Of a stretch of 64,000 bases of DNA, positions 1 to 41,062 are shown piece after piece. Location: positions 38,117-102,116 of the forward strand of contig CADCBB010000003.1 of assembly GCA_902799555.1 (NCBI GenBank). Reading direction: 5' to 3'. The translations under genes and the position numbers were made by a program. Source of the DNA: an uncultured Bacteroidales bacterium (GTDB taxonomy: Bacteria; Bacteroidota; Bacteroidia; Bacteroidales; Paludibacteraceae). The notes beneath the pieces were generated by a model. It had not been told where the DNA came from. It was given only the letters and a program-made list of their open reading frames with translations, and ran no database searches. The first letter of the stretch is position 1. Each line of letters begins with the position of its first letter.

Positions 1-1446
1 ATGGCGCAGATTGAAACGACTGCGGCTCCTCATAAACCGACCAAGACCATAGTAGCGGTGAATCCGATGGCGGCTGAGCCGGAGAAAGTGGAAAGTGGAA
101 AGCCGAAAGTGGAAAGTGAGCAGCCGGTAGTGGAGACTCCGAAGAAGAAACGCGGACGGCCGAAGAAAGCGGAAAGTGTCAAGCCGGCAGAAGCGCCGGA
201 GGCCCCGAAGCAAGAGGTAGCAGAGGCACCTAAGCCGGAAGCTCCGAAGCCGGCAGAGAAGCCGGCAGAAAAACCGGCAGAGAAACCGACAGAGAAACCC
301 AAGCCGACAATGCCGGATTTGGGTGAGAACGTGATCGCGATGGGTACCTTGGAGTGCACACCGGACGGCTACGGATTCTTGCGTTCGGCAGACTATAACT
401 ACCTGCCAAGTCCTGATGATGTCTATGTAAGCAAAGATCAGATGCGTCAGTACGGCCTGAAAGCGGGCGACACAGTAGAGTGCTCGATTCGTCTGAACCC
501 GCAGCCGGAGAAATTCTTCCCGATGGAGAAGGTGATTCGCATCAACGGTCTTGACCCTGAGTTGGCGAAGAAACGGGTAGCGTTTGAGAACCTCACTCCC
601 CTCTTCCCCGATGAAAAATTCAAGTTGTGTGTAGGAAATCGTCAAGACAGCCTGAGCGTACGTATGATCGACCTGTTCAGCCCGATCGGTAAGGGTCAAC
701 GTGGTCTGATTGTAGCGCAGCCGAAGACCGGTAAAACCGTGTTGCTCAAGGAGTTAGCCAATGCTATTCTGCATAACAACCCGGAGGTTTATATGATCGT
801 TCTGCTCATCGACGAGCGTCCGGAAGAGGTGACCGACATGGCGCGCAGCGTGGACGCCGAAGTGATTGCTTCGACCTTCGATGAGCCGGCCGAGAACCAT
901 GTGCGCGTAGCCAATATCGTCCATGAGAAAGCGAAACGCTTGGTAGAGAGCGGTCATGACGTCGTTATCCTGCTTGATTCGATCACTCGTTTGGCTCGTG
1001 CCTACAACACCGTGGCTCCGTCGAGCGGTAAAGTGCTGTCCGGCGGTGTAGAAGCACAGGCACTGCATAAACCGAAACGTTTCTTCGGTGCCGCCCGTAA
1101 CATTGAGAACGGCGGCAGCTTGACCATCATCGCGACGGCTTTGACCGAGACCGGAAGTAAGATGGACGACCTCATCTTTGAGGAATTCAAGGGAACGGGT
1201 AACATGGAACTGCAGCTCGATCGCAAGTTAGCCAACAAGCGTATCTTCCCGGCCGTGGATATCCCGGCATCGAGTACGCGTCGTGACGATTTGCTTTTAC
1301 CGGCAGACGTACTGAGCCGCATGTGGCAGATCCGTAAGATGCTGAGCGATATGAGCGGTCAGGAAGCCATGGAGAAACTGAAGAGCTACATGGAGCGAAC
1401 CGAAGATAACGACGAATTTTTATTAGCCGTTAACGGCGCACGATGA
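1..1446 (+). CDS. rho: Transcription termination factor Rho (probably 5'-partial)
   Basis: Hexameric RNA-dependent ATPase that ends transcription. Residues 1-105 are Lys/Pro/Glu/Ala-rich and disordered-looking, with an AT-hook-like RGRPKK at 51-56 and a PAEK repeat. Residues about 112-180 form the cold-shock-like RNA-binding domain (PDGYGFLR). The ATPase follows: Walker A QPKTGKT (240-246), Walker B VVILLD (321-326), Q-loop [20 protein letters not shown] (346-365). The helical Rho N-terminal domain usual in the family is missing. The frame begins at base 1, so the true start probably lies upstream of the window. Overlaps aroQ by 4 nt (ATGA). Codons 29-41 carry a period-7 repeat. Confidence 0.97.
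86..121 (+). repeat. In-frame period-7 repeat in the Rho N-terminal region
   Basis: Five AGTGGAA-type 7-mers encode [13 protein letters not shown] in the disordered segment. Distinct from the 12-bp PAEK repeat at 244-300. Confidence 0.8.
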
Positions 1447-1865: not shown

Positions 1866-4377
1866 TGCGTCTTTGATGGCAGCCCAGTTGACCGGTAAGG
1901 CGGTTGATTTCGGGACGAAGAAACCGATTGATTTTGCGAACGTCAGCGTCATGAAGGGCGATCAACTCATCACGGGTACGATCACCGATGCGGAAGGTAA
2001 CTTTACGCTGGACGTCAAGGACGGCGAATACACGCTGGTCGTGTCGTTCATGGGTTATAGCGAGCAACGCAAACAGATCACGGTAAGCGGTAAACCGCTG
2101 AATATAGGTCGAATCGCACTCAAGGAAGATACGCAAACGCTGCGGGACGTCGAAGTGGTAGCGCAGGGTAGCTCCATGCGTTTTGAGTTAGACAAGAAAG
2201 TATTCACCGTCGATCAGAATATCGCTTCAGCCGGCGCATCGGTGACCGATGTGCTGGAGAATATCCCGTCGGTGGATGTGGATCAGGAAGGAAACATCAG
2301 CCTGCGTAACAGCGAAGATGTGGAGATCTGGATCAACGGCAAGCCGGCAGGTCTCAACTCTGAGAACCGCGGTCAGGTGCTGCAACAGATGCCGGCAGGT
2401 ACGATCGAGAAGATCGAGTTGATCACCAACCCGTCCGCGAAGTACAGCCCCGAAGGAACGTCCGGCATCATCAACCTGGTGATGAAAAAAGACCGCGCTG
2501 CCGGTTATTACGGTTCGATTCAGGCTGGTATTGACTACGCTTTGGCCAAACCCTGGACGACCCCTCCGGGCGCCAATGTGGGCTTTAACATCAATTTCAA
2601 TGCCGGGCCGGTGGACGGCTATTTCAATGTGGGCTATCGCTATCACACGAGCAACGGAGGTAGCACGACGGACCGCTATAACCTGAGTGGAACGGGTAGC
2701 CAGGTGTTGGACTCGAGTCTGATCACGAGTCACCTGGTGCAAGAGGGTACGCAGACGCATAAAGGCGGCGGTATGTTCGCCCGCGGCGGTCTAAATTTTC
2801 ATGTCGCAGAAGGCCATACGATCGGCGTATCGGGATTTGGCATGGTGAGCGATCCGAAAGTATTCACGATGAGCAATAACAACCATCGTGCCTATACCTA
2901 CACAGACGTCATCAATAGTGCCAATAACCGCTCCTATACCCGCGACCAGTACGGCACAGGCTATCATCCGGGCGGTAACGCGACCCTCGACTACCAGTTC
3001 GAGATGGACGAGCATAAGTTGAACGTCAGCGGAACGTATAACCATTTCGGTTTCAATATGCTGACCGACTATACACAGATCGAAGGCACGGACACGACCT
3101 ATCAGGACCAGAACAGTTGGAGCAAGGAGCAAGGCATCGAGATCAAGGCCGACTATGAATGGAAACCGACGCCGCAAAGTCGTCTGGAAGCGGGATATGA
3201 CTACACGCGTAACTGGAGTAACAGTTCGGCGGACGCGCATAACAACTATGCCGACGGCACGCATATCCAAGAACTAAACGAGTACTATACGGACTTCAAC
3301 GGACTGACGCAGAACCATGCGTTGTATGTGACCTACGGAAACCGATTCTGGGACAAGTTGTCGCTGCAGGTAGGTCTGCGTGGCGAGTACTACATGCGTC
3401 ATCTGGAGTCGCATTATAAAGACGGCACGGGAGCCATCCAGGACTCGTACGCGGGAATGGAGAACAAGAAAGATACATCTTATTTCCAACTCTTCCCGAG
3501 CGCCTATATCGGCTATGATTTCGGTAACGGCCATGAGTTGCAGTTGAACTATACGCGTCGTGTTCGCCGTCCGTGGGGCCACCAGATCAACCCGCGCATG
3601 GACTTCAGCGATAGTACGAACATCGGCTATGGTAACGTGGATCTGTTGCCCGCCTACACCAATAACCTCGAGTTGAATTATCTCAAGAGTTGGGAGCGTC
3701 ATACGCTGAGTGCCGGCGTATTCTGGAAATATGGAGAGGGTGCGGTGCAGAACATCAAGTACATGGAGGGCAACGTGATGAAAAACACGTACCTCAATGT
3801 GGCGACGCGTCAGGAGTTAGGTGTCGAATTGGTAGCGAAGAACCGTTTGTTCGGCGAATTGCTGCAACTGACGACCAGCGCCAATTTTTACTGGAATAAT
3901 ATCGCGGCGGTGAACCAAACGATCATGCACCAAGGTACCGCTATTCCTGTGAACCTGCCCAAGCAGAATATTTTTGCCGGCTCGGTACGCGTGAACGCGC
4001 AGTTCCTCTTCACCAAGGACTTCAGTGGACAGCTGACGGCTGCATACCGTTCGCCGCGTGTGGTTGCACAAGGTACGACGAGTCACAGCTACTCGATCGA
4101 TCTGGGTCTGAGACATACCTTCCTCAACAAACAATTAGCCCTGGCGCTGAATGTGCGCGATATTTTGGATAGCCGTGCACGGCGTAACACCACTTGGGGT
4201 GCAGGTTTCTGGCAGTTTAGCGAGAATAGATGGCATAGCCGTTCGATCAGCCTAACGCTGACCTATAACTTCGGCAACCAAATGGGTCGCAAACGCGGTC
4301 GTCCGGACGGCGATTTCGATGGCGGAAGCGATGACTTCGATGATAGCGGAAACGGACATACGGATAGCGGATTTTGA
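1822..4377 (+). CDS. Outer-membrane beta-barrel protein with carboxypeptidase-like plug region (TonB-receptor-like)
   Basis: About 851 aa. Signal peptide [20 protein letters not shown], then a carboxypeptidase-regulatory-like beta domain (about 25-105), a plug-like domain (about 110-225, with VLENIPSVDVDQEGNISLRN and IEKIELITNPSAKYSPEGTS) and a barrel to the C-terminus, as in the OMP_b-brl_3 family. The C-terminus is Gly/Asp-rich. The ATG at 1822 is preferred to 1807 because AAAGGA lies just before it and it opens the signal peptide. No SusD partner is nearby, so a glycan-uptake SusCD role is unlikely. Substrate unknown. A paralogue lies at 58751-61222. Its stop codon lies at the edge of a GTGAAAR-type heptamer array. 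Confidence 0.9.
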   Translation: MKKLFYTLFLLISVSASLMAAQLTGKAVDFGTKKPIDFANVSVMKGDQLITGTITDAEGNFTLDVKDGEYTLVVSFMGYSEQRKQITVSGKPLNIGRIALKEDTQTLRDVEVVAQGSSMRFELDKKVFTVDQNIASAGASVTDVLENIPSVDVDQEGNISLRNSEDVEIWINGKPAGLNSENRGQVLQQMPAGTIEKIELITNPSAKYSPEGTSGIINLVMKKDRAAGYYGSIQAGIDYALAKPWTTPPGANVGFNINFNAGPVDGYFNVGYRYHTSNGGSTTDRYNLSGTGSQVLDSSLITSHLVQEGTQTHKGGGMFARGGLNFHVAEGHTIGVSGFGMVSDPKVFTMSNNNHRAYTYTDVINSANNRSYTRDQYGTGYHPGGNATLDYQFEMDEHKLNVSGTYNHFGFNMLTDYTQIEGTDTTYQDQNSWSKEQGIEIKADYEWKPTPQSRLEAGYDYTRNWSNSSADAHNNYADGTHIQELNEYYTDFNGLTQNHALYVTYGNRFWDKLSLQVGLRGEYYMRHLESHYKDGTGAIQDSYAGMENKKDTSYFQLFPSAYIGYDFGNGHELQLNYTRRVRRPWGHQINPRMDFSDSTNIGYGNVDLLPAYTNNLELNYLKSWERHTLSAGVFWKYGEGAVQNIKYMEGNVMKNTYLNVATRQELGVELVAKNRLFGELLQLTTSANFYWNNIAAVNQTIMHQGTAIPVNLPKQNIFAGSVRVNAQFLFTKDFSGQLTAAYRSPRVVAQGTTSHSYSIDLGLRHTFLNKQLALALNVRDILDSRARRNTTWGAGFWQFSENRWHSRSISLTLTYNFGNQMGRKRGRPDGDFDGGSDDFDDSGNGHTDSGF

Positions 4378-4409
4378 AAAGTGAAAAGTGAAAGGTGAAA
4401 AGTGAAAGG
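4374..4409 (+). repeat. Period-7 tandem repeat (GTGAAAR type), gene junction
   Basis: Five contiguous 7-mers of the form GTGAAAA/GTGAAAG. The array overlaps the upstream stop codon and supplies AAAGG plus the GTG start codon of the PorT-like gene. Confidence 0.9.
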
Positions 4410-5183
4410 ACATATTTAGTGAAAATTGAAAGGTTAAAGGTGAAAGGGATTCTCATTCTTTTCTTCCTTTCAATTTTCAATTTTCAATTTTCAACTTGCG
4501 AGGCACAGCAGGCGATGAACAAGCCGTATGTGGATGATAGACTCTTCCACTTCGGCTTTCAGTTGGGCGTCAACTTCAGTTCGTTCTTTGTCACGGACAG
4601 CGAGGTGCCTATCGCCGACCCCATCACAGGGCAAACGGAGATCTATCACAGCCGTGTGAGCAGTCTGCTACCGGGCTTCAATGTGGGTTTTGTGACGGAT
4701 TTACGGCTATGTAATTACCTCAGTCTGCGTTTCTGTCCGGGAATGCAATTTGCCAGCCGCAGCCTGACCTACAAGACGGAAAGCGGAAGACCCGTAGCAG
4801 GTAGTCCGGGGCACGGTGCGACGGTGGATGTACTCGCCATGCCCGTCTCGTTACCGCTCTACCTCAAATGGACGGCGGCACGGGAAGGAAACTACCGCCC
4901 CTATGTCATTGCCGGTGGCGGTGTGAGCTTCAACGTGAGTCGCGACCGCGAGAAACCCGTGGTGATGAACCTGATGGACTACTTCTGCGAGGTCGGTTTT
5001 GGCGTCGATCTGTATTTCCAGTGGTTTAAGTTCTGTCCGGAAATCACGTACCGCATCGGTTTTGCCGACCAACTCTACCCTGCGGACGGACGTATGGAAC
5101 TCGCTCCGCAAGATGCGTTCTACACCAATGCCATCCAACGGTTGACCAGCAGTTGTGTCTGTCTGACTTTCAATTTCGAATAA
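4395..5183 (+). CDS. porT: PorT-like outer-membrane beta-barrel protein
   Basis: 262 aa from GTG 4395. Residues about 16-38 form a hydrophobic signal sequence ending near TCEAQQ. The mature part begins with KPYVDDRLFHFGFQLGVNF, close to what I recall of PorT from Porphyromonas and other Bacteroidetes, where it is an outer-membrane component linked to type IX secretion. Alternating strands with glycine turns and a terminal aromatic (FNFE) fit a small barrel. A second in-frame GTG at 4440 could be the real start; I chose 4395 because the same heptamer module gives the start of the next gene. The signal peptide is partly encoded by TCAATTT repeats (residues IFNFQFST). The family call rests on memory of the N-terminal motif. 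Confidence 0.65.
   Translation: MKSERTYLVKIERLKVKGILILFFLSIFNFQFSTCEAQQAMNKPYVDDRLFHFGFQLGVNFSSFFVTDSEVPIADPITGQTEIYHSRVSSLLPGFNVGFVTDLRLCNYLSLRFCPGMQFASRSLTYKTESGRPVAGSPGHGATVDVLAMPVSLPLYLKWTAAREGNYRPYVIAGGGVSFNVSRDREKPVVMNLMDYFCEVGFGVDLYFQWFKFCPEITYRIGFADQLYPADGRMELAPQDAFYTNAIQRLTSSCVCLTFNFE
4419..4446 (+). repeat. Period-7 repeat, left arm of an inverted pair
   Basis: Four 7-mers of GTGAAAA/TTGAAAG type. Bases 4420-4433 are the exact reverse complement of 4466-4479, so the mRNA could form a 14-bp stem with a 32-nt loop containing the alternative GTG start at 4440. Confidence 0.85.
4466..4498 (+). repeat. Period-7 repeat (TCAATTT type) encoding part of a signal peptide
   Basis: Four tandem TTTCAAT units. 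In frame they encode FQFSIFNFQF-like hydrophobic residues of the PorT-like signal sequence. They form the right arm of the inverted pair with 4420-4433. Confidence 0.85.
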
Positions 5184-5184
5184 G

Positions 5185-5206
5185 GTGAAAGGTGAAAAGT
5201 GAAAGG
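5185..5206 (+). repeat. Period-7 repeat at a start codon
   Basis: Three GTGAAAR units between the stop of the PorT-like gene and the beta-helix lipoprotein. The GTG at 5192 within the array is the most likely start codon of that gene. Confidence 0.85.
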
Positions 5207-11398: not shown

Positions 11399-12790
11399 AT
11401 GAATTACAGAATTGAGTCCGACTTGCTGGGCGAAATGCAAGTACCGGTAAACGCGTATTATGGGGTGCAGACCCAACGCGGTATTAACAACTACAAGGTT
11501 TCTAACCTCAAGATGTCCGACTTCCCGGAGTATATCATCGCTATGGGATACATCAAGTTAGCGGCCGTCGAGGCGAACCATGACTTAGGCGTCATCAACG
11601 ATGAGATCTATGCAGCGATCGCACAGGCTTGCCGTGAGATCATCGACGGAAAGATGCATGACCAGTTCCCCACCGATATGGTGCAGGGAGGTGCCGGAAC
11701 AACGGTGAATATGAACGCGAATGAGGTCATTGCGAACCGTGCCTTGGAGATCATGGGTCATCAACGCGGTGAGTACCAATATTGCTCGCCGAACGATCAT
11801 GTTAACTGCGCGCAGAGCACCAATGATGCCTACCCTTCTGCTTTCCGCTATGCCTTCATCCGCATGAACCGCGGGCTGGTAGAAGAGCTGCAACGCCTCA
11901 TCGTATCCTTGCGTAAGAAAGGAGATGAGTTCAATGACTCGATCAAGATGGGCCGTACGCAGTTGCAGGATGCCGTACCGATGACGAGCGGTCAGGAGTT
12001 CCATGCCTTTGCCAATAACCTCGAGGAAGAGGTAGCAAACCTCAGCCGCAACGTTAACTTGCTCTATGAGATCAATATGGGCGGTACAGCGATCGGTACG
12101 GGTCTGAATGCGGTAGCAGGCTATGCAGAACTGTGCATCAAGAAGATGTGCGAACTGACGGGCGAACCCTTCACGCTTGCGAGCGACCTCGTGGAAGCAA
12201 CACCGGATACAGGCGCCTATGTCAGCTATTCGGCAGCCCTCAAGCGTCTGGCTGTGAAATTAAGCAAGACCTGTAACGACCTGCGTCTCATGGCTTCCGG
12301 TCCGCGTTGCGGCCTGCATGAGATCAACCTGCCGCCGATGGCACCGGGTTCGTCTATCATGCCGGGAAAAGTGAATCCGGTCATTCCGGAGGTAACGAAC
12401 CAGGTATGCTTCAAGGTCATCGGTAACGACACAGCCGTCACCTTCGCCGCTGAATCAGGTCAGCTGCAACTCAACGTCATGGAGCCGATCATCACCGAGT
12501 GCATCTTCGAGTCCATCACCTGGCTGCGTAATGTGATGGCTATCCTGCGCGAGAAATGTATTGACGGCATCACGCTGAACCGTGAGCATAATCTCGAGAC
12601 CGTTAAGCACTCGATCGGTATCGTCACCGCGCTCAACCCTGTGATCGGATATAAAGCATCGACAAAGATCGCCAAAGAAGCGCTGGAGACCGGCCGTAGT
12701 GTCTATGACCTGGTGCTGGAGCATGGGCTGCTACAAAAAGAGCAGCTCGATGAGCTGCTCGATCCTAAGAATATGTTAGCGGCGCACTGA
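11399..12790 (+). CDS. aspA: Aspartate ammonia-lyase (aspartase)
   Basis: Converts L-aspartate to fumarate and ammonia. 463 aa, normal length. Fumarase/aspartase superfamily signature GSSIMPGKVNPVIPEV (about 318-333) contains the catalytic serine loop. GRTQLQDAVPMTSGQEF and TNDAYPS are also present. Aspartase is preferred to fumarase because of the N-terminal ESDLLGEMQVPVNAYYGVQT and ESGQLQLNVMEP. No clear promoter in the 25-nt gap after ftsY. Its end overlaps the convergent repeat-protein gene by 15 bp. Confidence 0.93.
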   Translation: MNYRIESDLLGEMQVPVNAYYGVQTQRGINNYKVSNLKMSDFPEYIIAMGYIKLAAVEANHDLGVINDEIYAAIAQACREIIDGKMHDQFPTDMVQGGAGTTVNMNANEVIANRALEIMGHQRGEYQYCSPNDHVNCAQSTNDAYPSAFRYAFIRMNRGLVEELQRLIVSLRKKGDEFNDSIKMGRTQLQDAVPMTSGQEFHAFANNLEEEVANLSRNVNLLYEINMGGTAIGTGLNAVAGYAELCIKKMCELTGEPFTLASDLVEATPDTGAYVSYSAALKRLAVKLSKTCNDLRLMASGPRCGLHEINLPPMAPGSSIMPGKVNPVIPEVTNQVCFKVIGNDTAVTFAAESGQLQLNVMEPIITECIFESITWLRNVMAILREKCIDGITLNREHNLETVKHSIGIVTALNPVIGYKASTKIAKEALETGRSVYDLVLEHGLLQKEQLDELLDPKNMLAAH

Positions 12791-14020
12791 TCCTCCGCCT
12801 CCTCTGCTGCCTCCTGATGAAGGAGCGCTACTGCCACCTCGGCTAGAGCCTACGCTACTTCCTCCTCGGCTACTACTTGCGCCTCCACCGCCGGAGTATG
12901 TACTTCCGCTGCGCGTTGAGGCGCTTGTTGTACGTGTAGATGTACTGCGTGTACTTGTGCTCGTACTCGGCGTACGTGCTACGCTGCTGCTGGTACTGCG
13001 AGTCGAGGTGCCGGTACTGCGAGAAACCGTACTGGTACTGCGTGTACTCGTGCTCGTACTCGGCGTGCGTGCTACACTGCTACTGGTGCTGCGGGTCGAA
13101 GTGCCGGTACTACGGGTTGCTGTGGCACTCGTGCTGCGAGTAGAATTACTTGCGCTACGTGTAGCGGTGGCACTTGTGCTGCGAGTAGAAGTACTTGCAC
13201 TGCGTGCACTGGAGCTTACTGCTGCACGACTTCCTGCTACAGGCGATGCCGAACGAACAGAAGAGTTAGCGCGTACACTGTGCGTATTACGGATCTCGCG
13301 GGCATTAACCATTCCTGCATTGCGACGCTCAAACGAACGCTCCGGATGCGCTACGGCGTAGTCACGATGGCTTACGTGATGATGCATGTCATGATAGCCG
13401 TGGTGGATATGATGTCCCGGACGGAACGAGCAGTGATGGTGATGATGATGGAAAGCGTAGCAGTGATGCCAATACCAGTCGTGTGCCCAGCAGTTGTGTG
13501 CGTACCACCAACTCGGGTAATAACCCCAGTACCAAGGACTATGCCATGCGTACCATGCGTCGCTCCAGAACCAGTCGTAGATAACAGGACGGTAGATATA
13601 AACCGGTTCGATGATATAGTTCGAACCATATACGTACTCGTCACCTATCACTTGAACGCTTACTTCGTTCTTCTCGTCTTTCTCTACATAGATAGAGGCC
13701 ACGTCCTGATAGATATCTTTGGCGAGAACAGCTTGCAGTACGATCAGACGCTTGTTTCCTTCGCCTGTCTCTACTACGCGTAAGTAGTCCACTTGACCGT
13801 CGCCATTCAGATCGAGATTGCAGAATGCGCTGTCCGGGTTGTTGAGCATCGTCTCGAACTCTTCCAGGTTCTTAGCCTCCGCAAAAAGCTTAGCTACCAC
13901 CTTCAGATCGAGTCCTTCCGAGATGTCAGAACTTTTGGCAGAAACGGTGATCGTCTCATCTGCCCATAACATGGTGCTTACCAGCGCCAGTGTCATCAGA
14001 AGTGTAGTTAATCGTTTCAT
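12776..14020 (-). CDS. Secreted His/aromatic-rich protein with Ser-Thr-Arg repeat tail
   Basis: 414 aa in four parts. (1) Signal peptide 1-20. (2) Residues 21-145: a folded domain with an EF-hand-like loop DLNGDGQVD at 70-78. (3) Residues 145-225: extremely rich in Trp, Tyr and His, with six consecutive His (191-196) and many HH pairs, suggesting metal binding. (4) Residues about 245-414: low-complexity Ser/Thr/Arg, including a roughly 30-residue unit (RSTGTSTRSTSSSVARTPST...) present twice almost identically, ending in Gly/Ser. Similar architecture exists in Bacteroidetes envelope proteins, but I know no function. A sigma-54-like site lies about 45 nt upstream. The repetitive DNA creates open frames on the other strand that I do not regard as genes. 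Confidence 0.85.
   Translation of the reverse strand: MKRLTTLLMTLALVSTMLWADETITVSAKSSDISEGLDLKVVAKLFAEAKNLEEFETMLNNPDSAFCNLDLNGDGQVDYLRVVETGEGNKRLIVLQAVLAKDIYQDVASIYVEKDEKNEVSVQVIGDEYVYGSNYIIEPVYIYRPVIYDWFWSDAWYAWHSPWYWGYYPSWWYAHNCWAHDWYWHHCYAFHHHHHHCSFRPGHHIHHGYHDMHHHVSHRDYAVAHPERSFERRNAGMVNAREIRNTHSVRANSSVRSASPVAGSRAAVSSSARSASTSTRSTSATATRSASNSTRSTSATATRSTGTSTRSTSSSVARTPSTSTSTRSTSTVSRSTGTSTRSTSSSVARTPSTSTSTRSTSTRTTSASTRSGSTYSGGGGASSSRGGSSVGSSRGGSSAPSSGGSRGGGGSVRR
12950..13215 (-). repeat. Nested tandem repeats coding for the Ser-Thr-Arg tail
   Basis: Degenerate repeats coding SATATRS/SASTSTRST and a larger roughly 90-bp unit duplicated almost exactly. Likely expanded by unequal recombination or slippage and prone to length change. 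Confidence 0.8.
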
Positions 14021-14087: not shown

Positions 14088-15317
14088 TTATACAAGCTTC
14101 AGGTCGTGGTGCATCTTGTCTTTTTTGGTACGCATATAGCGTTCATTCCACTTATTAGGTTGAATCTCAATCGGCACATTCTCAACGATTTCGATGCCGT
14201 AACTCTCCAAGCCCACACGTTTCACAGGGTTATTGGTCATCAACCTCAGCTTATGTGCACCCATCTCGCGTAAGATCTGTGCGCCGACACCATAGTCGCG
14301 TTCATCGGGACGGAAACCCAGATGCACATTCGCCTCCACTGTATCTTCCCCCTGCTCTTGCAACTTATACGCGCGTATCTTATTCATAAGGCCTATACCG
14401 CGTCCTTCCTGATTCATATAGACGATGATCCCGCGTCCTTCCGCTTCGATCATCTGCATCGCTCTGGCTAACTGCTCGCCGCATTCGCAACGCATCGAGC
14501 CGAACACGTCACCCGTCATACAACTCGAGTGCACCCGACAAAGCACCGGTTCATCTTCTTTCCATTCCCCTTTGGTCAGCACCACATGCTCGAGCCCTGT
14601 CGTCAGATCGCGGAAAGGCGTTAACATAAACTCGCCGCTCTGCGTAGGAAGAAAGACCGTCTCGCCCTTCTCGACGAGAGACCTTTCGCCTTTCACCATT
14701 AACCTTTCCCCTTTACGGAGCCGATAAGCAATGAGGTCCTTGATGGTGATGATCTTGAGGTTGAATTCCTTCGCGACCTCTTGCAACTGCGGCATTCGCG
14801 CCATCGTGCCGTCTTCGTTCATGATTTCGATGAGAGCCGCCGCAGGATGCAGACCCGCCAGACGTGCCAGATCGACACCGGCTTCCGTATGGCCTGCACG
14901 TTGCAGTACCCCACCCGCTTTGGCATAGAGCGGGTTGATATGCCCCGGACGACCGAAGGTCTCCGGCTTAGAGTTCGGATCGGCTAAGGCCTGTATCGTA
15001 GCCGCGCGGTCAGCCGCAGAGACACCCGTTGTGCAGCCTTCTAATTTATCTACCGTCACCGTAAACGGCGTACCTAACATCGAGGTATTGTTCGTCACCT
15101 GATGCATCAAGTCCAACTCGGCACAACGCTGCTCCGTGATCGGACAGCAGAGTACACCGCGACCATGCTGTAACATAAAATTGACCTTATCCGGCGTGAT
15201 CTTCTCCGCAGCAATAATGAAATCGCCTTCGTTCTCGCGATCCTCATCGTCCACTACGATAACGAATTTCCCTTCCCGGAAATCAGCCAACGCTTCTTCT
15301 ATTGTATTGATTCTCAT
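14088..15317 (-). CDS. ribBA: RibBA: 3,4-dihydroxy-2-butanone-4-phosphate synthase / GTP cyclohydrolase II
   Basis: Catalyses the two entry steps of riboflavin synthesis. Residues 1-195: RibB domain ([36 protein letters not shown]). Residues about 220-400: RibA domain with zinc ligands in [20 protein letters not shown] and GTP-site [16 protein letters not shown]. Between them, residues about 201-212, a period-7 DNA repeat adds [19 protein letters not shown]-like sequence to the linker. Overlaps the upstream permease by 35 bp. Both catalytic halves look intact. Confidence 0.96.
14682..14716 (-). repeat. In-frame period-7 repeat in the RibBA linker
   Basis: Five 7-mers of CCTTTCR type (the reverse complement of the GTGAAAG family at 4.4 kb), read on the minus strand as Lys-Gly-Glu-Arg repeats between the two enzyme domains. 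Confidence 0.85.
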
Positions 15318-24236: not shown

Positions 24237-25082
24237 ATGTAACGGAAGATGATGCTCGTGTTTCCAACGCTTATGTTGGAGCACGAGTTCATTTTTTGTT
24301 TGGGGTGTGCAGAAGGTATCCACGAACCGCTCCCAGATATAGCTCACCGCCAAAGACGAAGGATGCACCAGATCATCGGCATAGAAACGGTAGTCACGTA
24401 ATTCGTCCAACATTATTTCGTAAGAAGGGAAGTACAAAACCCCACCCGACCTCCCCTCAAGGGAGGAGAGTTGTTCTACCGCCATAAGGAGTGTGGCTTT
24501 AGAGAGTTGGTTCTCATGGAGACCGTCTCGGATATGCCGAATAGGCGAGACAGTAAAGAGCCAATGTTTATCAGGATAGCGGTCAAGGATGGGACGCCAT
24601 GCTGCCACAATCTCTTCGACCGAAAGACGCCGCCGTGTAAAACAACTCTCCGGCAACTTATGGCAATTACCAACGATCTCACCATCTTTCTCATAGACCC
24701 ATGCCGTACCGAACGTGACGATCACCACCGTCGCTTCCTTCAACGCCTGCTGCATAGTTTCTATGGATGCACGTACCGTTCGCTCTGCCTCCTCTTTCGT
24801 AGCCCTTGAAAACGATCCATGATGCGCCATCGAGTGCCATAAGCCGTCGTGCTCAACGAGCAGTAATGGGTCATTGGTCATTGGTAATTGGTAATTCATC
24901 GCTTGCGCGATCGAGAGAGGATTATAGAGTGTACCGAAGGGATTACAGGTGACGTTCAGATAGCGTTGCTGCATCTGTTCGCCTATCTCGTCCGAGAAAC
25001 ACGAACCGAGCATCAGGATTTTATCCTCATACCCTATCTTCCATTTGGAAGGCGCTATATCTACGATCGTTTGTAACTTCAT
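24234..25082 (-). CDS. GSCFA-domain protein (SGNH-like hydrolase superfamily)
   Basis: 282 aa from ATG 25082. The family motif appears as LGSCFSDEIG near residue 25. Other conserved blocks: NPFGTLYNPLS, VIVTFGTAWVYE, GNCHKLP, FTVSPIRHIRDG and the C-terminal YADDLVHPS with the likely catalytic Asp/His. The family is probably an esterase/hydrolase of unknown substrate. Two unusual in-frame pieces: NYQLPMTN (24863-24897, period-7 repeat) and LSSLEGRSGG from a CCTCCC/GGGAGG palindrome (24450-24466). Starts at TGATG with the permease gene. Confidence 0.88.
   Translation of the reverse strand: MKLQTIVDIAPSKWKIGYEDKILMLGSCFSDEIGEQMQQRYLNVTCNPFGTLYNPLSIAQAMNYQLPMTNDPLLLVEHDGLWHSMAHHGSFSRATKEEAERTVRASIETMQQALKEATVVIVTFGTAWVYEKDGEIVGNCHKLPESCFTRRRLSVEEIVAAWRPILDRYPDKHWLFTVSPIRHIRDGLHENQLSKATLLMAVEQLSSLEGRSGGVLYFPSYEIMLDELRDYRFYADDLVHPSSLAVSYIWERFVDTFCTPQTKNELVLQHKRWKHEHHLPLH
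24450..24466. repeat. Palindrome CCTCCC-ctcaa-GGGAGG inside the GSCFA gene
   Basis: Perfect 6-bp inverted repeat in an unusually C/G-rich patch, translated in frame as SSLEGRSGG. Looks like a small dispersed palindromic element rather than conserved protein sequence. Confidence 0.6.
24863..24897 (-). repeat. In-frame period-7 repeat in the GSCFA gene
   Basis: Five 7-mers of GTCATTG/GTAATTG type, read on the minus strand as MNYQLPMTNDPL. Confidence 0.85.
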
Positions 25083-26745: not shown

Positions 26746-27211
26746 TATCGCTCGGATAATGTACACCAAGGTACATCCGACTATAGCAGTTCAGTGCCAC
26801 CCAAGCCATCAGGCTGACGGTGGCATATTTATTTCGATACAACAGACTAAAGAGTAACGCGACCGCCATCGTATTCGCAGCATGAGAGCTGCAGAAACCA
26901 TATCGTCCGCCGGCATAGCCACGCACCAGATGCAGCGGATCGAGAGCGGGTTCATGGGTCGGCCGCAGCCTACAAACCCAAGGCTTGAGGATGCCGCTGC
27001 AGAGGAAGTCACTCAAGCCTACGGCGATACCGAAACCGACCAGCATCAGCAGCACAAGTTTCCAGCTCCGGTATTTGCGATAAAGCAGAATGATCAAGAC
27101 CACATAGAGCCACACCCAGGTCTTGGCAGCACTCGCCGTCCACATCACCTTATCGAGCCATCCGGCATAATGACCGTTGATCCAAAGTAATATGTCCGCG
27201 TCTAACGACAT
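26639..27211 (-). CDS. PAP2-family phosphatase
   Basis: 190 aa membrane phosphatase of the undecaprenyl-pyrophosphate/phosphatidic-acid phosphatase superfamily. Five or six hydrophobic helices. The three PAP2 motifs are present: KPWVCRLRP (about 75-83), CSSHAANT (about 106-113, SxxH variant of PSGH) and SRMYLGVHYPSD (about 143-154). Substrate could be undecaprenyl pyrophosphate or a lipid A phosphate. Overlaps the convergent secreted-protein gene by 107 bp. Confidence 0.92.
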   Translation of the reverse strand: MSLDADILLWINGHYAGWLDKVMWTASAAKTWVWLYVVLIILLYRKYRSWKLVLLMLVGFGIAVGLSDFLCSGILKPWVCRLRPTHEPALDPLHLVRGYAGGRYGFCSSHAANTMAVALLFSLLYRNKYATVSLMAWVALNCYSRMYLGVHYPSDIIAGLLIGSLWALLVWLALLHWLPVDDEAALPGDS

Positions 27212-27245
27212 TTATGATTTATGATTTCAAATTTATGATTTATTC
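27211..27245. repeat. Period-7 repeat at the PAP2/rsmE junction
   Basis: Five TTTATGA-type 7-mers (one TTTCAAA) spanning from the PAP2 start codon to past the rsmE stop codon. Confidence 0.85.
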
Positions 27246-36947: not shown

Positions 36948-37420
36948 TATGCGTCGGCTGTCGACCGGAAGGCATCATGAGTTCGCGTCAGATGCGGAAG
37001 GTGCTGATCGATATCCATAAGACGGAGGGTGCTATCCAGGCGGCAGGCGTACGGTATGACGCCTACGAAGAGCGGGATATGTACTATGCGCAGGTATTAG
37101 AGAAACACGGCATCACGCAGGCGCAGTTCGATTCGTCGATCGTATGGTACACTGCCCATCCGCAATTCTTCAATAAGATCTACCCGAAAGTGCTCAAAGA
37201 GATCGAAGCGGAAGAGGAGGCCTTTGTGGCAGCGCACCAAGACGAATTGAGCACTCTGGCACCGGCCGTAACGGATATGACCGTAGCGGAGAAGGTCTTC
37301 ACCCGCTACGATCTGGACAGTGTACTATGGGTACAGCGGAACGGTTACCCCAACTCGTGGCAGCCCTTAGTGCATGATTTTAAAGATGAGCTCTTTCCAC
37401 AGATCGGCGTCCTTCGCTGA
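36899..37420 (+). CDS. DUF4296 lipoprotein
   Basis: 173 aa from ATG 36899. Signal peptide with lipobox ICVGC (Cys at about 21). The mature helical domain holds the DUF4296 pattern: MRKVLIDIHKTEGAIQ, YYAQVLEKHGITQAQFDSSIVWYTAHPQFFNKIYPKVLKEI. Known only as a conserved Bacteroidetes envelope lipoprotein, often encoded beside lspA. Function unknown. Converges on holA with a 54-bp overlap. Confidence 0.85.
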   Translation: MCSRSHIAILLALFAVICVGCRPEGIMSSRQMRKVLIDIHKTEGAIQAAGVRYDAYEERDMYYAQVLEKHGITQAQFDSSIVWYTAHPQFFNKIYPKVLKEIEAEEEAFVAAHQDELSTLAPAVTDMTVAEKVFTRYDLDSVLWVQRNGYPNSWQPLVHDFKDELFPQIGVLR

Positions 37421-38398
37421 GGGGTTATTGACGCCCTTGAGCCGCGCATCCATCTCCCGCAGATAGCCTACGATAAGGAAAGTCTTACCGGCCGGATAAC
37501 GTCTGGCCGCCATCTCATAATCTTTGACGAAATAGGGGTTGATGCCTAACTCTCTGGCCACCGTCGCCTGCGACTTATCCGGCATGTAATGATACATGAG
37601 CAAATTGGAGAAGAAGGTAAAGAGCGGGGCTATCTCGCGGATCATGACATGCTCTTTCGTGGAGGCAAAATAGAGGGCGATGCGGTTCGCTTTGACGATA
37701 TCGCCGCGAATAAGCGCCGCCTGCAATTCCATGATATTATAATCTTTGGAGATGCCGATATTTCGCTCGACGAGCGCGGCATCGATGGTATGGACGCCCT
37801 CGGGACGTCCTGCTATCAGTTTATCCAACGCGCCCACAATAGCCGAGAGATCCGTACCGATATGATCCGCCAATAACGGCGCCACTTTCGGATCGATCTG
37901 TATCTCGGGATGTTCTTTTTTGTAGTCGGCTATATAGGCGCTGATCCAGCGTTCGACCTCATAGTCCCGCAGCTTATCGGACTGCATCCAAACGACCTGC
38001 GGATGCTCGGCGATCTTCTTCCATATATTCTGCCGTTTGTCGGGTTTGCCGTTAAAGCAGATGACGAGCACCGTCTGCGGCATGACGGCAGCGAGGTAGG
38101 CTTCGAGGGCCTCCCATTTCTTGACGGTCTGTGCTTCGCGTACAATAACGACCTTACGACCTCCCATCATCGCGTATCCGCGTGCGGCACTGACGACAGG
38201 GGCGATATCCGCCCCTTGCAAGTCGCGTCCATAGACGACCTGTTGGTCAAACTCCCGCGCCATCTCATCCAAGGCGTTCTCGGCAATGAAATCATACACC
38301 CGGTCGATATAATAGGGTTCTTCGCCGCACAGGATATAGATCGGCGCATACTTACCGGCCTTGAGTTCGGCCATGATATCAGGGAATTTCTTAGTCAT
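37367..38398 (-). CDS. holA: DNA polymerase III subunit delta
   Basis: Clamp-loader subunit that opens the sliding clamp. 343 aa, typical length. N-terminal AAA+-like fold: PIYILCGEEPYYIDRVYDFI (Walker-like region degenerate, as in delta), RKVVIVREAQTVKKWEALEAYL, then DLSAIVGALDKLIAG, NIGISKDYNIMELQAAL and a C-terminal helical collar domain. The start codon lies in a TGATTGA heptamer array shared with the 3' end of the upstream gene. Confidence 0.95.
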   Translation of the reverse strand: MTKKFPDIMAELKAGKYAPIYILCGEEPYYIDRVYDFIAENALDEMAREFDQQVVYGRDLQGADIAPVVSAARGYAMMGGRKVVIVREAQTVKKWEALEAYLAAVMPQTVLVICFNGKPDKRQNIWKKIAEHPQVVWMQSDKLRDYEVERWISAYIADYKKEHPEIQIDPKVAPLLADHIGTDLSAIVGALDKLIAGRPEGVHTIDAALVERNIGISKDYNIMELQAALIRGDIVKANRIALYFASTKEHVMIREIAPLFTFFSNLLMYHYMPDKSQATVARELGINPYFVKDYEMAARRYPAGKTFLIVGYLREMDARLKGVNNPSAKDADLWKELIFKIMH

Positions 38399-39938
38399 TG
38401 ATGATTGATGATTGATGATTTGGAGGAAGGTAGATCATGTATTTATATGCAGAGCGGTCTAGCGTCCGATAGCCGTGCGCACGGAGCATATTCTCCAGAC
38501 AGGACTCGGTATCGCGGTCGTTCTCTTTCTTAAAGCCCGGCGCAAACGAGCAGAAGACGATGGGCTGTCGTGCCTCGATGAACGCTTCGTATTTGCGCGT
38601 ATAAACCGAATCATAAATATTGGACCAGAACTCATTATACACCGCCGCCTCACAGCCTGTGATAGCGCGCATGAGGTGCATGCTACGCCCTACAGCCAGC
38701 ACCTCTCCGGCCAGGCTATCCCGGTCGGCAAGCACCTGCTGCATCCATGCTTCTTCTTTGTCCGTGATCCGGATATGGGTGTAGGGCGCTATTTGCGAAG
38801 GGGTATTCGAGACGCGGAGGTTACTGCTGCCGACACTATTGATGGAGAAACGGATCATGACCGTGACCGCGAAGATAGCGAGGAGCGGAAAGAGAAACCG
38901 CCGCATCGGTGCTTCGTACGATGATGCCGCGACAGGAAGCAGACAGAGCACGGCAGGGAAGAGCTTGAGCCAAGCCATGTCGGTACCTAAGGTCGCTATC
39001 ATCAAGATGATAGCTCCAATTGGTAATTGGTAATTTGTAATTGGTAATTTGCCAACTGCTAAGACGAGGACCATGGCGGAGATCATGTAGGTCAGGTCGA
39101 TATTATACCATTTCCATGTCGGGATGGCGTAGGTGACGTAACAGCTGAGGAGAGCGCCGACAATGACTCCTGCTAAAATTTGAAATTTGATATTTGCTAT
39201 TTGAGATTTATATCCTATCGCGAGGGCGCCGCCTCCCATCAAAAGGTAGAGGATTAGCACATAACTACGCTCCCATAGGGCGGAGATCATCTCCCCTACT
39301 CCGTGGCTACCCATGGACGGATCCATGGAGACCGGCGTGATGAGGGCGTAGCCTAACAGATAGACGAGTCCGGCAGACAAGGCAGCGATAGGCACGAGCC
39401 AAAGGCTCTTCTTACGCCACAACGGAATAAGGATCAGCAGGACCAATATATTCGGGAAACGGACAGTTACGGCTATTCCGGCAAGAATAGCCGTGACTAT
39501 TTGTAATTTGTCATTGGTTATTTGTGATTTAACGGCACAGACCCAGATGGCGGAGAGAAGGAGGACGGTGAGGGTGCCTGAACTGAACTCCTGGAACGCG
39601 CCGTAGTTCATGAAGGCGAAAGCGAGAGCGAGCCAATGGATATTATCGCGTCGCTGCTCTTTGGTCAGCAGCGCGCAGTAGGGCAGCACGATAGCAGCCG
39701 CTACCGTAGCCCACGCGGTGAGCCTCAGCATGAGCAGGTTCGCCCCGAAGAGCCGCACGAGTGCAGCACCGGTGAGGATCGTACCGACAGCCATCCATCC
39801 GCATTCGAGTGTCTGGTACTTATAGAGCCAATACAGCGGATCTTGCGGATTACCAAAACCCGCAAAGACGAACCATAAGGACCAGCCGATAGCGAAGAGT
39901 AAAAGGCTTACTGATAGTATGTCTTTATAAGATCGCAT
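38391..39938 (-). CDS. Polytopic membrane protein (GT-C-like) with heptamer-encoded insertions
   Basis: 515 aa, about eleven membrane helices followed by a soluble C-terminal part (about 385-515; MQQVLADRDSLAGEVLAVGRSMHL, ENMLRAHGYRTLDRS). General layout resembles membrane glycosyltransferases or polymerases that use lipid-linked sugars, but I see no catalytic motif. Three internal loops carry peptides from period-7 DNA repeats: KSQITNDKLQIVT (about 137-149), KSQIANIKFQILAG (about 244-257) and KLPITNYQLPIGA (about 296-308). The last residues (NHQSSIIND) come from a fourth. Overlaps the aminotransferase gene by 31 bp. Function unknown. Confidence 0.8.
   Translation of the reverse strand: MRSYKDILSVSLLLFAIGWSLWFVFAGFGNPQDPLYWLYKYQTLECGWMAVGTILTGAALVRLFGANLLMLRLTAWATVAAAIVLPYCALLTKEQRRDNIHWLALAFAFMNYGAFQEFSSGTLTVLLLSAIWVCAVKSQITNDKLQIVTAILAGIAVTVRFPNILVLLILIPLWRKKSLWLVPIAALSAGLVYLLGYALITPVSMDPSMGSHGVGEMISALWERSYVLILYLLMGGGALAIGYKSQIANIKFQILAGVIVGALLSCYVTYAIPTWKWYNIDLTYMISAMVLVLAVGKLPITNYQLPIGAIILMIATLGTDMAWLKLFPAVLCLLPVAASSYEAPMRRFLFPLLAIFAVTVMIRFSINSVGSSNLRVSNTPSQIAPYTHIRITDKEEAWMQQVLADRDSLAGEVLAVGRSMHLMRAITGCEAAVYNEFWSNIYDSVYTRKYEAFIEARQPIVFCSFAPGFKKENDRDTESCLENMLRAHGYRTLDRSAYKYMIYLPPNHQSSIIND
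38395..38422. repeat. Period-7 repeat across the holA start
   Basis: Four TGATTGA-type 7-mers covering the holA ATG and the last codons of the upstream membrane protein. Confidence 0.85.
39017..39053 (-). repeat. In-frame period-7 repeat 1 in the membrane protein
   Basis: Five GTAATTG/GTAATTT 7-mers, read as KLPITNYQLPIG. Confidence 0.9.
39175..39211 (-). repeat. In-frame period-7 repeat 2 in the membrane protein
   Basis: Five AAATTTG/ATATTTG/CTATTTG 7-mers, read as YKSQIANIKFQIL. Confidence 0.85.
39497..39531 (-). repeat. In-frame period-7 repeat 3 in the membrane protein
   Basis: Five GTAATTT/GTCATTG/GTTATTT/GTGATTT 7-mers, read as KSQITNDKLQIV. Confidence 0.85.
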
Positions 39939-41062
39939 ATGGTGTTTACTTGCTCGATCGTCAGGTCATAGAAGAGCGGCAGACGCACGAGGCAATCGGC
40001 ATAACGATCGCACTCGGGCAGTTGACGTCCGTCATGGCGGGACTTGTAGAACTCACTGCTATGCAGGCTCAGATAATGGAACACCGCTCCTACCCCGTTC
40101 TCTTTGAGGTACTTGATGAGGGCCGTACGTGCTTCGAGAGACGGCAGGACGAGGTAGAACATATGCGCATTATTGGTCGCATAATCCGGTATATCCGGCA
40201 AGGAGAAGCAACCCTTGTCAGCCAGCGGTTTCAAGCGTTTCTGATAAGTCTCCCAGATGTATTTGCGTTTATGCTGGATGGCATCGATATTCTCCAGTTG
40301 CGCCCATAGGAAAGCGGCATTCACTTCGCTGGGCAGGAAAGAGGAGCCCATATCGACCCATCCGTACTTATTGACCTCTCCGCGGAAGAACTCGGCACGG
40401 TTGGTACCTTTCTCCCAGATGATCTCGGCACGGCGAATAAAACGCTCATCGTTCACGACCAACAGACCACCTTCCCCTCCGGCGGTGATATTCTTCGTCT
40501 CGTGGAAAGAGAAAGCAGCGAGATGACCGATGCTGCCTAAAGGCAGAATTTGTGATTTATGATTTCTGATTTTTGATTTGTAGTAGCTGTCGATTGCTTG
40601 TGCGGCATCTTCGACCACGAGCAGATGATGCTTGTCAGCGATGGTCATGATGGCATCCATGTCGCATGCTACACCGGCATAGTGAACAGGCACGATGACC
40701 TTGGTACGCGGTGTGATGAGGGCTTCCAGCGTCTCGGCATCGAGGTTCGGGTTGCGCTTCATGCTATCGGCAAACACCACTTTCGCCCCTTCGCGCAGGA
40801 AAGCCAAAGCGGTACTGACGAAGGTATAGGAAGGGATGATAACCTCATCGCCCGGCCGGAGATCGCAGAGCATGGCGCACATCTCGAGTGCGTCCGTACC
40901 GGAGGTGGTAAGCAGACATTTGCGGAAACCGTAGCGCTCTTCGAACCACGCCTGGCAGCGCTTGGTGAACATACCGTTACCGGATAACTTACCGTTATAC
41001 ACGGCCTGGTACATGTAATGGGCTTCTTTGCCCGTCAGAGTTGGTCTGTTAAAATCTATCAT
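39908..41062 (-). CDS. rffA: dTDP-4-amino-4,6-dideoxygalactose transaminase-like aminotransferase (RffA/WecE)
   Basis: PLP enzyme of the DegT/DnrJ/EryC1 family that makes amino-deoxy sugars. 384 aa. FNRPTLTGKEAHYMYQA at the N-terminus and TSGTDALEMCAML, DEVIIPSYTFVSTA, EDAAQAIDSYY and the Schiff-base lysine region SFHETKNITAGGEGG match RffA. Between AQAIDSYYK and GSIGHLAAFSFHE, a period-7 DNA repeat adds about ten residues (SKIRNHKSQIL) just ahead of the active-site lysine region. Other family members have only a short GKPLG-like link there as I recall. Probably still active. Confidence 0.92.
   Translation of the reverse strand: MIDFNRPTLTGKEAHYMYQAVYNGKLSGNGMFTKRCQAWFEERYGFRKCLLTTSGTDALEMCAMLCDLRPGDEVIIPSYTFVSTALAFLREGAKVVFADSMKRNPNLDAETLEALITPRTKVIVPVHYAGVACDMDAIMTIADKHHLLVVEDAAQAIDSYYKSKIRNHKSQILPLGSIGHLAAFSFHETKNITAGGEGGLLVVNDERFIRRAEIIWEKGTNRAEFFRGEVNKYGWVDMGSSFLPSEVNAAFLWAQLENIDAIQHKRKYIWETYQKRLKPLADKGCFSLPDIPDYATNNAHMFYLVLPSLEARTALIKYLKENGVGAVFHYLSLHSSEFYKSRHDGRQLPECDRYADCLVRLPLFYDLTIEQVNTICDLIKTYYQ
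40548..40582 (-). repeat. In-frame period-7 repeat in the aminotransferase gene
   Basis: Five GATTTAT/GATTTCT/GATTTTT 7-mers, read on the minus strand as KSKIRNHKSQI. Confidence 0.9.

Follow-up and report, generated by a model that had tools for sequence, protein, structure and literature searches.

Tandem heptamer arrays inside proteins of uncultured Bacteroidales: recurrent sites, kept reading frame and changing units

How do tandem repeats with a period of 7 bp, which is not a multiple of three, come to lie in frame inside a protein-coding gene? The question is raised by a gene for a multi-helix membrane protein in an uncultured Bacteroidales bacterium of the family Paludibacteraceae (GenBank assembly GCA_902799555.1). 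The gene lies within a stretch of 64,000 nucleotides (contig CADCBB010000003.1, positions 38,117 to 102,116; hereafter the window), for which an earlier reading of the letters alone, here called the sequence-only reading, had proposed that three heptamer arrays are translated within the protein and that a fourth encodes its end. The genome itself comprises 2.34 Mb in 82 contigs and is about 86% complete. We compared the window with further parts of its own genome and with related loci, and confirmed that the arrays of the membrane protein are one case of a genome-wide and genus-wide pattern in uncultured Bacteroidales of the Paludibacteraceae. We consider it probable that the arrays are lineage-specific heptamer elements with fast turnover, spread by slippage and by copying between sites and filtered by reading frame and protein fold. 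The coordinates of all features are collected in Table 1.

Translation of the open reading frame (ORF) of the membrane protein (38391..39938, minus strand) yielded KSQITNDKLQIV, (Y)KSQIANIKFQIL and KLPITNYQLPIG from the three internal arrays, and the C-terminal end ..NHQSSIIND* from the fourth, which also holds the start codon of the holA-like ORF (37367..38398); on these points the sequence-only reading was borne out. Array 1 is the weakest, being missed both by Tandem Repeats Finder (TRF) at a score of 40 and by a scan at a score of at least 14, and detected as 32 nt with a score of 10 at a lower threshold. The protein had no Pfam match in the profile scan. Its AlphaFold2 model (mean predicted local distance difference test (pLDDT) score of 84) resembled GT-C enzymes such as ArnT and oligosaccharyltransferase in Foldseek (best E value 2e-5, template modelling score about 0.5). 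In this model the encoded peptides are predicted to lie at or across inter-helix turns, in agreement with the proposal that they fall between membrane helices. The peptide of site 1 (residues 137–148) is placed between or across helices 120–138 and 144–159, that of site 2 (246–255) at helices 214–247 and 250–271, and that of site 3 (297–307) at helices 277–296 and 304–317, while the peptide of array 4 forms the C-tail, the last block of which has a pLDDT of 45.

Of 101 genomes sampled from the genus, 24 contained a homologue of the membrane protein, the own genome among them. Among 23 homologous frames including that of the window (the partial homologue L024 omitted, and L025 being a second piece of the gene of L020), arrays were found at site 1 in 8, at site 2 in 7 and at site 3 in 4, and a fourth internal site, array-free in the protein of the window, carried arrays in 3. 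The unit varies from genome to genome, and in other relatives the loops are short, down to 2 aa at site 1. At site 3, one relative (L056) is without an array, and another (L057) has heptamers flanking a hairpin core. Conservation in homologues would have marked the peptides as ordinary protein sequence; instead they are variable at these sites, in the membrane protein as in the adjacent aminotransferase.

Period-7 repeats make up 12 of the 26 TRF rows of the window. With a simple match/mismatch score of at least 14, the window holds eight period-7 arrays, and the other periods from 2 to 21 are represented by one array of period 12, two of period 14 and one of period 21, the last two periods being harmonics. 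In a related sample of 869,070 bases, consisting of the window and 44 related loci, the same threshold gave 118 period-7 arrays compared with none in one dinucleotide-shuffled copy; since the loci were chosen around the membrane protein gene, this density is not that of a random genome sample. Periods 8 and 11 gave 25 and 12 arrays, respectively, and periods 14, 21 and 28 are harmonics of 7. The related loci are assigned to Bacteroidales, to Paludibacteraceae or, in one case, to a Bacteroidia bacterium; several come from the rumen or other ruminant gut compartments, and strains were sampled at one genome per species. The 118 arrays are short and impure and have 64 different consensus units, and 62 of them lie in ORFs, 49 between ORFs and 7 at edges. 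An own-genome sample of 458 kb (394 kb plus the window; score at least 12) contained 51 arrays, 30 in ORFs, 18 intergenic and 3 at edges. ORFs cover about 91% of this sample, so arrays are depleted in genes and yet common there. Array location relies on heuristic ORF calls (longest ORFs of at least 100 aa), and 5 of the 30 arrays in ORFs of the own-genome sample sit in frames of 105–155 aa that are possibly not genes. Both counts carry the arrays well beyond the window. At a score of at least 14, the own-genome sample held 6.9 arrays per 100 kb. Samples from three further genera of the family gave 4.3, 1.4 and 0 per 100 kb, and a set of 26 short loci from other genera gave 1.0.

Arrays of 7-bp units in excess of chance, with length and unit varying among close relatives, characterize heptanucleotide short tandemly repeated repetitive (STRR) sequences or heptameric simple sequence repeats (SSRs), and both features are observed here. 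The mainly intergenic location reported for heptameric SSRs is not observed (62 of 118 and 30 of 51 arrays in ORFs), and we take it to be a reported habit of such repeats rather than a defining feature. Period-8 arrays (e.g. TTCATCCG, GGATTAGA) and period-11 arrays (e.g. CTATGGTGATC) were also in excess, in fewer places (window, L056-L119), and several period-8 arrays of the own genome, CGTTATAA/CGTCATGA, resemble a separate family.

The best test case is a beta-hairpin turn in the aminotransferase encoded next to the membrane protein. In the model of this enzyme the insert would lie between strands 160–163 and 171–174. It is missing from the two solved relatives that were aligned, 4piw and 6blg, with nine residues absent from both. 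Among 62 relatives, with the copy of the window counted once, the turn was empty (KGRP-like, 12 nt) in 22, filled with a heptamer array in 22 and filled with another insert in 18. The 22 array-bearing turns hold 13 different units; in one of them (L046) a short array lies within a 129-nt insert. Hairpins and unrelated sequence are among the 18 other inserts, which shows a general tolerance of the site, and the self-match of these inserts at lag 7 (z 4.5; next, the harmonic lag 14, z 2.8) is what decayed arrays would give. A quick tree was made from the flanking DNA of 62 of 63 rows (L026, a copy of the window's own gene, was omitted). At least 21 changes are needed on it to account for the three states, compared with a mean of 29.4 for shuffled states, of which 0 of 200 were as low. 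Empty versus filled needs at least 14 changes, and 12 for the label 'empty' forced by starred branches. The states are hence clustered but recurrent, and, as composition varies among many rows and gene transfer is possible, the numbers of changes are counts on one tree. Other small elements were seen at this turn in L038, L058, L076 and L046, for example a GTAG...CTAC palindrome in L038.

Orthologous array sites were compared by means of their 200-bp flanks. This gave 706 raw matches, which cover 81 of the 118 arrays and in which directions are counted separately. Where both flanks were at least 94% identical (11 comparisons, 8 sites), the unit was kept at 6 sites (8 comparisons), another unit stood at one site (2 comparisons) and a long non-heptamer insert at one (1 comparison). 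For flanks of 88–93%, the same unit was found in 5 comparisons, another unit in 4, a long other insert in 2 and a short state in 4; for flanks of 82–87%, these numbers were 14, 30, 39 and 13, respectively. Changes at near-identical flanks comprise L063/L070 (flanks 99/96%; CTAATCC-type versus AAAAATC units) and L092/L077 (98/98%; heptamer array versus G-rich insert), and in a third changed pair, L068/L067 (98/86%), one flank is less similar. The pair L065/L071 (95/98%) differs by exactly 21 nt, a three-unit step. In coding sequence, 235 of 240 comparisons, many of them of the same few sites, showed either no length difference or one divisible by 3, and no difference was a multiple of 7 but not of 21. 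Between genes, 0 or a multiple of 3 was found in 17 of 43 comparisons, with 11 edge comparisons set aside. The sequence-only reading had argued that an array of 35 nt must have been selected for frame or its flanking codons adjusted. Frame is indeed held, though in the total insert and not by the array itself, and the arrays of the membrane protein as detected measure about 24–34 nt rather than a uniform 35. Separately, L077 carries intergenic repeated blocks with heptamers and hairpins (L077:11197-11594) that are much shorter in L092, the locus being 96% identical.

Units from one locus resembled each other more than units from separate loci did (difference 0.046; null standard deviation 0.008; maximum of 1000 permutations 0.029). 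Near-identical units made up 9.1% of 231 within-locus pairs and 8.1% of the 186 pairs more than 1.5 kb apart, versus 1.9% between loci. Single genomes likewise favor particular units: matches to AGAGGTT repeats, several per array, numbered 47 in G206, 24 in G203, 9 in G202 and 0–2 in five other genomes, and matches to AAACCAC repeats 15 in G200, 8 in G201, 1 in G203 and 0 in five other genomes.

Some arrays form part of a composite element, in which heptamers such as (AAATCAC)n are followed by a 21-nt core, CACGGCTCTGCCGATCGAYAG, with a small hairpin, and then by heptamers again. The composite was found in the clade of the window and one further genome. A search of six genomes found nine places, eight of which, in four genomes, have heptamer-like arms by eye; G200 and G205 gave no match, and the ninth place, a single-mismatch match, is without arms. 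An automatic search recovered both arms, in register, at three of the eight. All eight lie in open frames and use all three frames, and six protein families are represented. The membrane protein accounts for three of the places, in two genomes; the other five families are a UbiE-like methyltransferase, PriA, a DUF4861 protein and, judged by sequence reading, probably a small methyltransferase and a hydrolase-like protein. In the own genome, PriA (95% identical to that of L150) has at that place an array that lacks the core and is 21 nt shorter, and the PriA of G015 has a variant core with AACTTTC arms, the arms in G000 (the own genome) and G208 being AAATCAC. Of seven core-type hairpins in the sampled loci, six lie within 40 nt of an array (2.4% expected); five of these six were known before the count, and of the two that were new to it just one lies close to an array. 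That array phase is generally held across interrupting cores was considered and found unsupported, with 7 of 28 same-unit pairs in register. Six of these rows are the composite at three distinct places (L102 = L144; L057 = L148 = L149; L147), and the seventh is L117. An array-core-array arrangement with a different core occurs at L084:9431-9936, where GGTTATT heptamer arrays alternate with 58–64 nt hairpin-like cores. Rickettsia palindromic elements are small palindromes of fixed sequence inserted in frame into many unrelated proteins. The composite resembles them in its in-frame presence in unrelated proteins, but the elements described here are tandem heptamers, of which only a minority are composites with a short core hairpin and most have no visible core.

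Arrays were common in other conserved proteins as well. In the own-genome sample, 20 ORFs of at least 150 aa bear arrays, and 17 of the 18 scanned had a Pfam match, as did the aminotransferase, which was scanned apart from those 18. The hosts include histidyl-tRNA synthetase (HisRS), a Rho-like factor, a Kdo transferase with three arrays, a DEAD helicase, ThiF, a UvrD-like helicase and fructose bisphosphatase, and the array often lies inside the Pfam-matched domain. In HisRS, compared with 6nhi, the array stands in for ordinary sequence without lengthening; some arrays thus appear to replace ordinary sequence and others, as in the aminotransferase, to add residues. By alignment at a low threshold, arrays were present at the PriA site in 9 of 31 relatives (30 loci among the matches listed and the query itself; matches in 60 of 61 genomes) and at the UbiE site in 5 of 30 (loci among the matches listed; matches in 39 of 61 genomes). 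Four of these rows (L157, L163, L190, L193) are weak and possibly due to chance, and some, e.g. L188, look heptameric and score below the threshold. The preponderance of stop-free sense units in ORFs (75 of 87, versus 24 and 23 of 65 per strand intergenically) was not used as a sign of selection, since the ORF call itself excludes stops. The window also contains a secreted-looking ORF of 414 aa (12776-14020) with a repetitive C-terminal region rich in Ser, Thr, Arg and Ala and built of 45–93 bp repeats.

Table 1. Heptamer arrays and associated genes in the window, with positions counted from its first nucleotide.
Feature	Position	Strand	Basis
Heptamer array in N-terminal part of Rho-like ORF (ORF cut by window edge)	84..118	+	TRF, Pfam
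Intergenic heptamer array TGAAAAG	4375..4407	.	TRF, own-genome array census
Intergenic heptamer array TTTCAAT	4468..4494	.	TRF, own-genome array census
Intergenic heptamer array AAGGTGA	5182..5206	.	TRF, own-genome array census
Lower-scoring heptamer array ACCTTTC	14681..14714	.	TRF only
Intergenic heptamer array GATTTAA	24209..24234	.	TRF, own-genome array census
Heptamer array in GSCFA-family ORF, encodes NYQLPMTNDP, inside domain	24863..24896	-	TRF, Pfam
Lower-scoring heptamer array ATTTATG	27210..27243	.	TRF only
holA-like gene (DNA polymerase III delta), start codon within array 4	37367..38398	-	ORF, Pfam
Membrane protein gene, 515 aa, multi-helix, GT-C-like fold (ArnT / oligosaccharyltransferase-like)	38391..39938	-	ORF, AlphaFold2, Foldseek
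Array 4, unit AATCATC, over C-terminus, stop codon, overlapping holA start codon	38395..38422	-	TRF (38397-38420)
Array 3, unit AATTACC, encodes KLPITNYQLPIG at inter-helix turn	39017..39053	-	TRF (39018-39049), AlphaFold2
Array 2, unit AAATATC, encodes KSQIANIKFQIL at inter-helix turn	39175..39211	-	TRF (39176-39209), AlphaFold2
Array 1, unit about AAATCAC, about 32 nt, encodes KSQITNDKLQIV at inter-helix turn	39497..39531	-	low-threshold scan, AlphaFold2
DegT-family sugar aminotransferase, dTDP-4-amino-4,6-dideoxygalactose transaminase-like	39908..41062	-	Pfam, solved relatives; adjoins membrane protein gene
Aminotransferase heptamer array, encodes KSKIRNHKSQI in beta-hairpin turn	40548..40579	-	TRF, alignment, model

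In the explanation that we favor, arrays of 7-bp units would arise repeatedly at many places in the genome, genes included, and turn over quickly. Within genes they would persist only where a peptide is tolerated, as in turns, loops and tails, with the frame kept in the total insert. Existing arrays would have their units homogenised and would grow or shrink in 7-bp steps, visible in genes only as 21-bp steps. Like units would come to other sites of the same genome, and some arrays with a short core would be dispersed as the composite element. Position and frame of an array would be set by the tolerance of the protein, and its sequence by the lineage. The comparisons themselves demonstrate the excess of arrays, their presence or absence among relatives, repeated changes of state at fixed sites, the keeping of frame, the swap of units between near-identical flanks, the likeness of units within a genome, and the composite in unrelated genes in three frames. 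We infer that slippage-type DNA synthesis makes and homogenises the arrays, that copying between sites spreads the units, that selection keeps arrays to places where they are tolerated, and that the peptides they encode serve no function in their own right. Slippage accounts for the 7- and 21-nt steps and for homogenisation but not, alone, for like units at different sites or for the composite, so that some copying or a trans-acting template is likely.

Several results weigh against this explanation. Much of the distribution in the aminotransferase must be inherited, given the clustering of the states on the tree, and 6 of the 8 sites with the most similar flanks retain their unit. The comparison was confined to open frames, which builds in part of the frame keeping. 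Copying of entire arrays as blocks from site to site was considered as a mode of spread and found no support: shuffling the order of units rarely lowered identity among 109 same-genome pairs with at least 85% identity, a comparison of little power because the arrays are short, and like arrays without a common unit order suggest that units spread in a way unlike simple whole-array copying. Empty sites match the later unit slightly better than chance (2.03 versus 2.28 mismatches; 13 of 500 permutations; 35 arrays), which would favor local growth for some arrays; as the sole origin, a local seed was rejected on account of the weakness of this signal. In PriA, several relatives share an array length of 54 nt but differ in the unit, a pattern to be expected from drift in place. 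The core hairpin has a modest folding advantage over shuffled sequence, 14 of 200 shuffles folding as well. Finally, no clear RAYT (Y1 transposase) was found in the own genome, within its 86% completeness; the best partial match had 21.4 bits, below the cut-off of 23, which was exceeded in 2 of 8 genomes.

A stronger version of the same idea is a mobile 'writing' system that deposits 7-bp arrays, sometimes with a hairpin core, whose unit is set in trans in each lineage, and that rewrites arrays genome-wide and inserts or edits peptides in all frames. The persistence of a related core while the arms change, from AAATCAC in G000 and G208 to AACTTTC in the PriA of G015, would fit such a system, which we nevertheless regard as rather unlikely. 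Comparably doubtful is the opposite extreme, in which ancestral arrays drift in place at set sites by slippage and homogenisation, without insertion or transfer of units. The PriA arrays of equal length, the weak seed signal at empty sites, the lack of a common unit order between sites and the retention of the unit at most sites with flanks of at least 94% identity all accord with such drift. Against it stand the empty state, which is found in other genera and in both aligned solved relatives and recurs across the genus, the like units at different sites of one genome, and the composite with its common 21-nt core in unrelated genes. The suggestion of an active or recent process at many sites in the sequence-only reading is supported by the swap of units at near-identical flanks and by the composite in unrelated genes; the question of whether heptamers were placed there or grew locally is answered only in part.

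The remaining alternatives survive less well. Templated synthesis in trans, for instance by a reverse transcriptase (RT) with a short RNA template acting in a telomerase-like manner, could explain a fixed 7-nt period with changing and genome-specific units, and we rate it as very improbable. In the own genome, about 86% complete, the RVT_1 profile matched only two adjacent genes, which PADLOC identified as Drt3a and Drt3b (G000:C16:24629-26673; L140, L141), a pair that serves in phage defence. A DRT10 RT was not among these matches, although the 2023 PADLOC library may omit DRT10 and its non-coding RNA was not sought. DRT10 shows that a bacterial enzyme can make short tandem-repeat DNA, in the form of cDNA that is a defence product; its unit is 9 nt and not 7, and genomic arrays or chromosomal insertion are not described in the available portions of the source (PMC12632851). 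Overall, neither RAYT nor RT candidates in the own genome were convincing as generators.

Phase variation, in which 7-bp slippage would toggle proteins on and off, draws on the fact that a 7-bp step breaks the frame, and heptanucleotide repeats have reportedly been discussed for the hmw adhesin genes of Haemophilus influenzae. Here, the arrays are short and impure, they lie in core enzymes (HisRS, PriA, Rho-like), and orthologous coding lengths nearly always differ by 0 or a multiple of 3, such that phase variation is highly unlikely. We give equally little credence to adaptive peptides, for example ones that each protein has acquired under selection as linkers or binding motifs; the same loops are occupied recurrently, as this would require, but the peptide changes with unit and reading frame, the same aminotransferase turn takes hairpins and other inserts, and 22 of 62 relatives have it empty. 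An artefact of assembly or binning is least credible of all: although all 44 related records are labelled as metagenome-assembled genomes (MAGs) or assemblies of uncultured or MAG isolates, with no cultured strain among them, the arrays are in frame and site-specific in many assemblies from different projects.

Heptamer repeats as such are already known. The heptanucleotide repeats of cyanobacteria and the heptameric SSRs of Xanthomonas and Nostoc share with the present arrays the 7-bp unit, the many loci per genome and the variation of length and sequence in close relatives, but are described as over-represented, mostly intergenic and G-rich in their units, in contrast to 64 units among 118 arrays and 62 in ORFs here (PMC4692102). 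TAACTGA direct repeats occur in Beggiatoaceae, Cyanobacteria and Bacteroidetes including a Paludibacter, and lie mostly just upstream of starts; those within ORFs are mainly at protein ends, apart from one RNA polymerase-like case (PMC4679880). They resemble the arrays described here in their heptamer form, partial presence in ORFs and Bacteroidetes hosts, and their mobility is discussed as possible; they differ in having a single unit, whereas we find recurrent sites in internal loops of core enzymes and changing units (PMC4679880). TAACTGA is absent from the 64 consensus units of the 118 arrays. Mixed heptamer arrays including single TAACTGA-type units were seen in another genus (genome G101, L122:12380-12467). 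In the P6b loop of the Nostoc trnL intron, Class I and Class II heptamer motifs have shifted repeatedly at one site (PMC4476775). Motif switching at one site is common to both cases, and the Class I form AATCTTC also occurs in the own-genome array L102, but P6b is a structured RNA loop and not protein-coding (PMC4476775). Searches of the open-licence PMC literature turned up no report of heptamer arrays that recur in frame within conserved Bacteroidales enzymes. What is new is the dense, internal, in-frame, recurrent and changing arrays inside core enzymes.

The over-abundance of heptamers in bacteria has been reported for years, with no more than a proposed reason, polymerase slippage, for which a 2007 survey is cited (PMC4692102). 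In the present genus, repeats whose period is not divisible by three are frequent within core enzymes. They stand at fixed loops, and relatives with the loop empty, filled or filled in another way can be set side by side, so that gain, loss, replacement of units and selection on frame become measurable in one genus. The arrays also provide a naturally occurring collection of peptide insertions that essential enzymes can accommodate. If it is true that the units are set in trans, a DNA-synthesis or mobility system is still to be identified. The arrays thus offer a rare look at the spread and the tolerance of tiny repeats in gut bacteria, many of them from ruminants.

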